This document shows positions 61,361 to 64,000 of a stretch of DNA of 64,000 bases, in pieces (position 1 is the first letter of the stretch; each line of letters opens with the position of its first letter). This stretch comes from Candidatus Zixiibacteriota bacterium. Lineage in GTDB: Bacteria; Zixibacteria; MSB-5A5; GN15; FEB-12. Location of the stretch: contig JBFLZR010000002.1 in the NCBI GenBank assembly GCA_040756055.1, positions 522,411 to 586,410 on the forward strand. Reading direction: 5' to 3'. The notes beneath the pieces are model-generated. The model made no database searches, was not told the DNA's origin, and worked only from the letters and a program-made list of their open reading frames with translations. A program made the translations under genes and the position numbers.

Positions 61361-62035
61361 ATGCTCTATTTCCTTCTCACATTACTGATACTTTTTGTCG
61401 CGTTGATGTTGCTAAGGGTAAGAGTCCGTGTTCACCTGTCCCCAAAGCGGCGACTGCTGTTCGTCGGGCTTGGCCGGAGTGGTCCCGAGTTCGATTTCGT
61501 ACGCCGCGAAGGAAAGATCAAACTGTTCGGGATGAATATTAAGACAATCGACCTGGCCGAGGGAAAAACCGCCGGGGCAAAAAAACCCGCCAAAGAGAAA
61601 CGGGAGTCAAAAGAAAAACTTCAGAAGAAACAGAAACCCGAAAAGGCCGGGCGTCAACGGCCCGTCCGTGACTTCCTAAAAGTGCTTCCACCGGTCGCTT
61701 CTGCCGCGTTCGGCTACCTCATATCGCTGCTGCGGAGCATTATTATCGAACAACTGGAAGGTGAAATTGAGGCGGGGTTCGACACTCCCGACGTAACCGG
61801 CACGGTATTCGGATACTATCAGGCCGCCCTGGGGGCCGTTCCGGCCATCGCCGGACGGTTCCGCTATATTCCCCGGTGGGATCAACAGTATTTCGGCGGC
61901 TCCGTGCGTCTTTCCCTGGCAATACCGGTGTACCGAATAGCATTGAGGACCATAGTCTTTATATATAAACTCCCCCTGAGAGATTTAATAAAACTGGCGA
62001 TAGGCAAAAAGAAAGGAGACCAGGATGTCCAATAA
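61361..62035 (+). CDS. DUF2953 membrane-anchored protein
   Basis: The product is 224 residues. One N-terminal helix (about 1-20) is followed by a short beta segment ('VRVRVHLSPKRRLLFVG'), a Lys/Glu-rich linker (65-105), a hydrophobic part and a C-terminal segment 'RFRYIPRWDQQYFGGSVRLSLAIPV' split over two strands, as in DUF2953/YtfI. In Firmicutes YtfI is encoded directly before YtfJ/GerW; here too the next gene is GerW-like and overlaps by 11 bases. Function unknown. Confidence 0.8.
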   Translation: MLYFLLTLLILFVALMLLRVRVRVHLSPKRRLLFVGLGRSGPEFDFVRREGKIKLFGMNIKTIDLAEGKTAGAKKPAKEKRESKEKLQKKQKPEKAGRQRPVRDFLKVLPPVASAAFGYLISLLRSIIIEQLEGEIEAGFDTPDVTGTVFGYYQAALGAVPAIAGRFRYIPRWDQQYFGGSVRLSLAIPVYRIALRTIVFIYKLPLRDLIKLAIGKKKGDQDVQ

Positions 62036-62426
62036 CGTGGTCGAAATACTCAAAGGAGTTGTCGGAGAACTCCGCGAGATATCCAAATCGGAGACGATAA
62101 TCGGCAAACCCATCACGGTCGGCGATAAGACGGTAATACCGGTGGTGAAAATTTCAGTCGGATTCGGAGCCGGCGGCGGCCAAGGCGAAGACAACAAAAA
62201 AGGCAGCGGTTACGGTGGTGGTGGAGGAGGAGGAGCCAAAATCGAACCGGCGGCATTTATTATCATGGATGAAAAAGGCATCCGGCTGCTTCCCGCCCAG
62301 AAAGGCAAATGGGGCGAACTGATCGACACCATCCCCGACATCGCGCGAAAACTATCAGAGTGGAAAGACAAGTTTGCCAGTGACAAGTCGGACTCATCGG
62401 AGTCCGAAGACAGCGACAAAGATTGA
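62025..62426 (+). CDS. GerW/YtfJ family protein
   Basis: The product is 133 residues. The YtfJ core is clear: 'VVGELREISKSETIIGKPI' and 'IPVVKISVGFGAGGG' plus 'PAAFIIMDEKGIRLLP', followed by an acidic C-terminal end. In Bacillus GerW is needed for spore germination, but homologues are frequent in bacteria that do not sporulate, where the role is unknown. AAGGAG lies 5 bases before the start, inside the DUF2953 gene. A terminator follows 22 bases after the stop. Confidence 0.9.
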   Translation: MSNNVVEILKGVVGELREISKSETIIGKPITVGDKTVIPVVKISVGFGAGGGQGEDNKKGSGYGGGGGGGAKIEPAAFIIMDEKGIRLLPAQKGKWGELIDTIPDIARKLSEWKDKFASDKSDSSESEDSDKD

Positions 62427-62448
62427 TTAAGCGCAGACGATAGCTTCT

Positions 62449-62475
62449 AAAAAGCCGGCATAAGCCGGCTTTTTT
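62449..62475 (+). terminator. Rho-independent terminator after the GerW-like gene
   Basis: AAAAAGCCGGC pairs with GCCGGCTTTTT around ATAA, with a sixth T following. The A run before it allows function in both directions. An almost identical copy lies at 63743-63769. Confidence 0.95.
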
Positions 62476-62531
62476 GTTTCGGACTAACGTGCGCATCCGG
62501 CAACGCAGAACCTCAAAAGTGGATAAATATC

Positions 62532-62560: not shown

Positions 62561-62599
62561 TGATCAGTAATCGTCACAATCACATCTGGAGGGAAATCA

Positions 62600-63679
62600 A
62601 TGTTGCCCGAAGTTGAACAAGCCTTCTTGAATGCAATTTTGGCCGAACTTCCGTCAAATGGAGATACTGTCGGCAACTGGACCCTTATCAAGAAACTTAA
62701 AAGCGATGGCCTTAGTGAGCAGGACTATTGGCACTTGCAGGATAAGCTCGTTCAGTCAGGAAGAGTAAAAAAGGGAAGGGGTAAGGGCGGTTCGTTGGCT
62801 TTGGTTCTTGATGCATCGACAACAAATTCCACAAAGACCGAAGGTGACACCGCAGCCCCTGAAAGCACAGTTCCCGAAGATACTGAACTAAAGATCGACC
62901 GTCAGAAGCGTAAATCACTCGCCAAATTTATCCTAGGCGAAGTCCCGTCGAATGGTTCTACTGTGAGCAACCAGTGGCTCATAGCTAAAGCAAAGAAGAA
63001 CGGTTTTACGGAGGACGAGTACTGGTTTGTCAGAAACGAACTAATTGACAACGGCACCCTGGGCAAGGCTAGAGGAAAAGGCGGAACAATATACCTCGTT
63101 GCGGGTACTGCAAAAACCGCTGAAAAACGTACTAAGAAGAAATATGCAAAGGAAAAATCTTTATACAAACCTTGCCATGATGTCATAATGGGTTTCTGGA
63201 TAAAAGACGCGGGTCTAGACCCTCGCAAATGTGTTACTCAGGTCACCGCCAATCAAGGAGGCAGAAAGACTGGCGGAAAATGGACCAGACCTGATATCAC
63301 GGTCATCTCGGTCAGAACGTACGAGTTCATTCCAGGCAAGATTCTGGATGTGACTACGTTTGAAATTAAGCCTGCCAATGACTTAGATGTAAAGGGCGTC
63401 TTCGAAGCGGCCTCGCATTCCCGGTTTGCCCACAAGAGCTACCTAGCGGTTCACCTACCCGACGGCAAGAAGGAAAGCGACGACTTCAAGAATTTGCAGA
63501 AAGAGTGTGAGCGATTCGGCGTCGGCTTCATATATTTCGAAAAGTCAGACGACTGGACAACCTGGGAGATTGTCACGGACCCGGATAGAAAAAACCCAGC
63601 TCCCGAAGAAGTGGATCGCTTTATCTCAACCCAAATGAGTAAAGAAAATCAGAAGGATATTCACGAGTTTCTCAAGTGA
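62600..63679 (+). CDS. Putative PD-(D/E)XK-type nuclease with two winged-helix-like repeats
   Basis: The product is 359 residues, no signal peptide. Two homologous blocks (about 5-72 and 100-170) share 'AELPSNGDTVGNWTLI' / 'GEVPSNGSTVSNQWLI', an 'EDEYW'-like helix and 'GRGKGGSL' / 'ARGKGGTI', consistent with tandem winged helices. A basic linker ('KRTKKKYAKEK') leads to a C-terminal domain (about 190-330) with 'RPDITVIS', then about 18 residues later 'TFEIKPAND', the Asp...Glu-x-Lys pattern of PD-(D/E)XK enzymes. No named family is recognised; nuclease activity is inference. G+C content is visibly lower than in neighbours and near-identical terminators flank the gene, suggesting acquisition. 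GGAGG precedes the start by 8 bases. Confidence 0.8.
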   Translation: MLPEVEQAFLNAILAELPSNGDTVGNWTLIKKLKSDGLSEQDYWHLQDKLVQSGRVKKGRGKGGSLALVLDASTTNSTKTEGDTAAPESTVPEDTELKIDRQKRKSLAKFILGEVPSNGSTVSNQWLIAKAKKNGFTEDEYWFVRNELIDNGTLGKARGKGGTIYLVAGTAKTAEKRTKKKYAKEKSLYKPCHDVIMGFWIKDAGLDPRKCVTQVTANQGGRKTGGKWTRPDITVISVRTYEFIPGKILDVTTFEIKPANDLDVKGVFEAASHSRFAHKSYLAVHLPDGKKESDDFKNLQKECERFGVGFIYFEKSDDWTTWEIVTDPDRKNPAPEEVDRFISTQMSKENQKDIHEFLK

Positions 63680-63742
63680 CTCGTATACTCGAAGCTAACC
63701 GCTGTTTCACCACCGTCCCTCGGAAAATACTTGGCGAATTCT

Positions 63743-63769
63743 AAAAAGCCGGCATGAGCCGGCTTTTTT
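63743..63769 (+). terminator. Rho-independent terminator after the putative nuclease gene
   Basis: Same hairpin as at 62449-62475 with loop ATGA in place of ATAA. The match extends to 31 bases (63739-63769 against 62445-62475) with one difference. Confidence 0.95.
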
Positions 63770-63870
63770 CTTCAGAACCAACCGACCTTTTTGGTTGTTC
63801 TTGCTTCAAATGCCGTTATCCAACCACACCGACTTTTATGCCAATTAAGTCAAGATAGAAAGGGGTTAAG

Positions 63871-64000
63871 ATGAAAACGCTTGCGAGTCTCGTAACGGGT
63901 ATGGTAGCGATAATCCTTCTAACCGCGCCGGTCGCCTGGTCGCACTGTGAAATACCGTGCGGAATTTATGATGATTCGGTACGTGTCACACTCATGAGGG
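63871..64000 (+). CDS. sodN: Exported nickel superoxide dismutase, partial (cut by window end)
   Basis: Only the first 43 codons are present. They encode a Sec signal peptide (residues 1-24, ending 'APVAWS') followed by 'HCEIPCGIYDDS', which is the nickel hook of NiSOD (mature His1, Cys2, Pro5, Cys6, Tyr9 in the form HCxxPCxxY). Cleavage after Ser24 would expose His25 as the free amino terminus needed to bind nickel, and places the enzyme outside the cytoplasm. The enzyme removes superoxide. Classic NiSODs have a short propeptide cut by SodX; here a full signal peptide does the job. AAAGGGG lies 5 bases before the ATG. Confidence 0.88.
   Translation, partial: MKTLASLVTGMVAIILLTAPVAWSHCEIPCGIYDDSVRVTLMR

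Follow-up and report, generated by a model that had tools for sequence, protein, structure and literature searches.

A solitary winged-helix and PD-(D/E)XK gene in Candidatus Zixiibacteriota, a candidate one-gene restriction enzyme of a new family

In a 64,000-nt stretch of a Candidatus Zixiibacteriota genome (the window, meaning the whole stretch of DNA analyzed), a gene at 62600..63679 (+) encodes a protein with two N-terminal winged-helix (wH) repeats followed by a PD-(D/E)XK nuclease-like domain. We put at about an even chance that it is a solitary, horizontally acquired endonuclease of a new wH and PD-(D/E)XK family and works as a type IV-like (modification-dependent) restriction enzyme encoded by one gene. 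The gene is no isolated curiosity, since relatives with a single wH span at least five phyla.

Two winged helices and a nuclease-like domain

The ORF is complete and starts at an ATG, 6 nt after a Shine-Dalgarno-like GGAGGG (62588..62593, +) seen in the sequence; it encodes 359 aa. The protein matches no family in Pfam, NCBIfam or PADLOC and no PDB entry by sequence, in keeping with a preliminary description of this DNA, made from the letters alone, that had recognized no family. A full-length AlphaFold model built with 19 aligned homologues (mean pLDDT 86.7) contains two H-H-H-E-E winged helices, where that description had proposed winged-helix-like repeats, and Foldseek matches it mainly to wH proteins, FokI ranking second (E 2.4e-3, low TM-score). 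Repeat 1 covers residues 3-68 (62606..62803, +; H3-16, H26-34, H40-53, E56-58, E65-68; alignment A8). A disordered linker, residues 73-94 (62816..62881, +; pLDDT <50), separates it from repeat 2, residues 101-166 (62900..63097, +), to which both the single wH of relatives and the N-terminal parts of HsdM and Mod proteins align. A flexible linker, residues 171-178 (63110..63133, +; pLDDT <50), leads on to the nuclease-like domain, residues 185-359 (63152..63676, +).

The two repeats are products of an internal duplication far above chance: PSNGDTVGNWTLI...GRGKGG in repeat 1 aligns without gaps to PSNGSTVSNQWLI...ARGKGG in repeat 2, with 28/57 positions identical and a score of 154, against a mean of 25 and a maximum of 61 in 20,000 shuffles (z about 27). 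The duplication had been reported in the preliminary description and is borne out; the GRGKGG core that it assigned to both copies is exact in repeat 1, with ARGKGG standing in repeat 2.

Modeled alone from 24 sequences, the C-terminal domain (pLDDT 93.5, pTM 0.90) has the helix-strand order H-E-E-E-H-E-H-E, as in PD-(D/E)XK enzymes, which have an alpha-beta core with D and ExK on neighboring strands. The Asp...Glu-x-Lys motif and the PD-(D/E)XK-like fold had been predicted from the sequence, and both hold: RPDITVIS (residues 230-237) and TFEIKP (residues 253-258) carry the putative catalytic Asp232 (63293..63295, +) and Glu255-Ile-Lys257 (63362..63370, +). In a 19-row alignment E185, L188-Y189, P191, G226-K227-W228, P231-D232, T234, E255, K257, E269, G307 and G309 are invariant, among them Glu185 in the first helix of the domain (63152..63154, +; 19/19), and W228, P231, D232, E255, K257, G307 and G309 remain so in 24 more diverse C-terminal domains. 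As D232, E255 and K257 are invariant in 19/19 and 24/24 sequences, the motif is no chance match. The protein is very probably a metal-dependent DNA nuclease.

The nearest PDB fold to this domain is SPO1766 (3dnx; Foldseek E 2.5e-4, probability 1.00, TM 0.46/0.54); AspBHI and MspJI follow weakly at ranks 3-4 (E about 0.1), and in a viral structure library the top Foldseek matches include phage proteins named MmcB-like DNA repair. Scanned against Pfam, the 24 C-terminal domains gave no family, and a profile comparison of the nuclease domain with 3dnx gave no match at the sequence level, so the kinship with MmcB is one of fold. A short MmcB-like sequence retrieved 3dnx, which names that fold but is no proof.

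A winged helix shared with some DNA methyltransferases

The wH signature, P18, N26, L50, G54, G61, G63 and G64 in the numbering of alignment A8, also occurs at the N-terminus of a type I HsdM protein (L007), where PF12161 and PF02384 follow it, and at the N-termini of two type III Mod proteins (L008 and L009). Annotated plasmid matches of the wH were all DNA methyltransferases. The DNA-reading domain of the nuclease family is thereby linked to that of type I and type III methyltransferases, which ties the wH to modification and restriction. The N-terminal wH of these methyltransferases (L007:4992-6941, L008:5004-8249 and L009 near 5007) has no Pfam model.

Among 132 genomes of the phylum the window gene is the sole occurrence of the wH, and the A8 profile gave no sequence match to the DpnI wH or to any PDB chain at E<0.8. 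The tandem arrangement is absent from all relatives found; two copies are so far confined to the window gene. A bolder reading, which we consider rather unlikely, is that the motif P..G..xGN..L...GxGKGG marks an undescribed modification-reading module, common to methyltransferases that write a mark and to a solitary nuclease that polices it. Tandem copies would then read two sites or both strands, and the module would represent a new class of type IV reader.

A scattered family with unrelated neighbors

The first relatives came from tblastn on plasmids. Scans of genome and viral contigs with the single protein returned nothing; an alignment-based scan then succeeded and located 20 genome loci in Acidobacteriota, Pseudomonadota, Planctomycetota, Bacteroidota and Candidatus Fermentibacterota. 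Eighteen of the 20 consist of a single wH and the nuclease domain, with 24-46% identity to the window protein across the shared region, and the remaining two (L035 and L036) have another N-terminus. A search of a phage collection found no relative. The nuclease family, defined by its conserved residues and its members across phyla, is scattered and uncatalogued in Pfam, NCBIfam and PADLOC.

Some viral contigs carry related domains in other settings. One (L044:5470-9575) encodes a lone nuclease domain of 188 aa with no wH, followed by ORFs that we take, by eye, to be ParA-like, D12-methyltransferase-like and restriction-endonuclease-like. Two others (L015:6001-6744 and L016:6004-6753) encode proteins with 56-63% identity to an HTH and PD-(D/E)XK protein (L002) from another genome of the window's phylum.

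Pfam families among 107 ORFs around 22 relatives are mostly housekeeping ones (among the 25 listed of 116 families), and within the same 25 of 116 no family was matched by more than two members. No recurrent partner emerged. Neighbors such as aspartyl-tRNA synthetase, RecQ and PntB indicate that the gene enters unrelated sites. The preliminary description would have been undercut by homologues in a conserved housekeeping context with the Asp, Glu and Lys not conserved, or by a model lacking a restriction-like fold; the surroundings proved varied and unrelated, the residues invariant and the fold restriction-like. Against a role in defense, relatives mostly adjoin housekeeping genes and a defense neighbor is only occasional: PADLOC gave isolated matches around the relatives, for example to PDC-S41 next to L034 and to PDC-S14 next to L035. 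Matches to DpdE, DpdF and ZorD among the neighbors were judged to be helicases of a housekeeping type (RecQ next to L026 is an example) and set aside, by inspection rather than gene by gene.

These neighborhoods bear on the alternative of an MmcB-like nuclease for DNA repair or recombination, whose wH repeats would bind DNA that is damaged or branched for the nuclease to trim, with no role in defense. We judge this unlikely. The best fold matches, 3dnx and the MmcB-named phage proteins, argue for it, as do the many relatives beside housekeeping genes and the one beside RecQ, but a sporadic distribution, recent acquisition and unrelated neighbors are unlike those of a housekeeping repair gene. 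Furthermore, its wH is also found in restriction-modification methyltransferases, and it matches neither 3dnx at the sequence level nor any Pfam family.

No methyltransferase is linked to the window gene in its immediate surroundings, and a motif scan of 282 ORFs, a crude one that divergent enzymes could escape, found no methyltransferase-like motif around 21 of the 22 relatives. The sole methyltransferase-like protein in that scan lies beside L036, where there are also a nuclease-like ORF and a protein of 1763 aa that carries the methylase motif NPPY (L036:8720-14640); judged by eye, this may be a type ISP-like restriction enzyme. This absence argues against an orphan sequence-specific, type II-like enzyme of the FokI kind whose protecting methyltransferase was lost or is encoded at another locus of the genome; moreover, a solitary gene moving between phyla could not count on a resident methyltransferase. 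Such an enzyme is distinctly unlikely, even though the full-length model retrieves FokI, with its N-terminal wH array and C-terminal nuclease, at rank 2, the host genome encodes several methyltransferases (D12, N6_N4 and N6), and the lone nuclease domain of L044 lies near what we take by eye to be D12-methyltransferase-like and endonuclease-like ORFs.

Insertion at an intergenic terminator

The genome carries a single copy of the gene, and congeners lack it. Its upstream neighbor (62025-62426) we take, by eye, to be GerW/YtfJ-like, and its downstream neighbor, which starts at 63872 and runs past the window end, to be NiSOD-like. In three congeners the site is empty and the order is upstream gene, GerW, NiSOD, YajC and Def, with one diverged hairpin in the gap between GerW and NiSOD. 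In the window, a 44-nt direct repeat with a GC-rich hairpin terminator flanks the gene; the left copy lies at 62445..62488 (+) and the right copy, 86% identical, at 63739..63782 (+), 1294 nt from start to start. The hairpin pattern of this repeat occurs in only these two places in the genome. Together, the empty site in congeners, the flanking repeats and the low GC of the gene (47%, against 53% for the window) indicate horizontal insertion of a single gene in one event, and the gene apparently came from another phylum.

The terminator repeat on both sides may be a trace of the way in which insertion took place. As a general signature of mobility the flanking-repeat cassette was discarded, because the repeats occur at the window locus only and around none of 21 other members.

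One gene placed cleanly at a terminator between genes, with a 44-nt repeat on either side, is what might be expected of a free-standing homing endonuclease or of some other selfish single gene that inserts at intergenic sites. We regard this as very unlikely, since flanking repeats are missing around the 21 other members tested and the insertion sites of relatives are unrelated, whereas homing returns to one site. Still more improbable is a regulatory or adaptor protein whose nuclease fold has degenerated. Transcription factors are where wH domains occur most often, and the full-length Foldseek list consists mostly of wH proteins, but a degenerate site would not keep its acidic and lysine residues invariant in 24/24 domains across phyla.

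A proposed modification-dependent restriction enzyme

Returning to the type IV-like restriction enzyme that we favor, we infer that the window protein cleaves DNA and, less firmly, that it depends on modification and serves defense. Its two N-terminal wH domains would recognize DNA, most likely by its modification state or by a sequence linked to modification; the flexible linkers would let them bring the metal-dependent nuclease, D232/E255-X-K257, to the DNA being read, and the C-terminal nuclease would then cut that DNA. The target would most likely be foreign or differently modified DNA.

A DNA-reading array that lacks a protective methyltransferase implies that self and non-self must be told apart in some other way. 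Given the D12, N6_N4 and N6 methyltransferases of the host, a nuclease that cut at 6mA in any context would turn on the genome that encodes it; and because the wH lies outside the DpnI sequence family and several host methyltransferases are present, a narrow context or another mark would be required. With neither a linked methyltransferase nor a recurrent partner, the type IV-like reading is favored by analogy with described wH fusions (PMC11037411). The predicted restriction-like fold, the invariant residues, the wH found in methyltransferases too and the patchy distribution also speak for it, and modification-dependent restriction seems about as likely as not.

Comparison with known systems

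Fusions of wH domains to nucleases are already a described kind of enzyme among type IV endonucleases, including DpnI/FcyTI, HhiV4I and Ahi29725I, and their standalone occurrence has served as an argument for modification dependence (PMC11037411). Like them, the window protein joins wH to a nuclease, and they too are mostly standalone, with no neighboring methyltransferase. It differs in having two wH domains, a wH of another sequence family and an MmcB-like nuclease fold; furthermore, its wH precede the nuclease, whereas DpnI-like enzymes have theirs after the PD-(D/E)XK domain.

FokI (2fok) likewise has an N-terminal wH array and a C-terminal PD-(D/E)XK nuclease, but the window protein has no sequence similarity to it, gives low TM-scores, carries two wH repeats and has no linked methyltransferase. 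SPO1766 (3dnx), with its MmcB-like fold, shares a D...ExK-type motif with the window protein, which in contrast carries wH domains and has no Pfam or sequence-profile match. The weak fold match to AspBHI and MspJI extends to a two-part design of reader and nuclease, although these enzymes read cytosine modification with a different type of domain.

Five HTH-REase proteins (L002, L003, L006, L015 and L016) have the same C-terminal domain, with PD...ExK invariant, and an N-terminal domain that differs from the window wH and matches no Pfam family. We presume that they may be of the HARE-HTH-REase or HrgA kind; literature on COG2958 and HrgA/HARE-HTH gave no confirmation of a link to them. One of the five, L006 on Novosphingobium resinovorum plasmid pSA1, lies directly after a 1148-aa DNA-methylase-like gene, which suggests that the pair (L006:4170-8423) is a two-gene restriction-modification unit. 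At the other end of the protein, the HsdM and Mod methyltransferases (L007, L008 and L009) have the same wH, with methyltransferase domains where the window protein has its nuclease. The domain order, wH sequence family, nuclease family and tandem wH are each without precedent in the libraries and literature searched. If active, the protein would give these systems a compact, mobile restriction enzyme encoded by one gene, whose reader domain is new.
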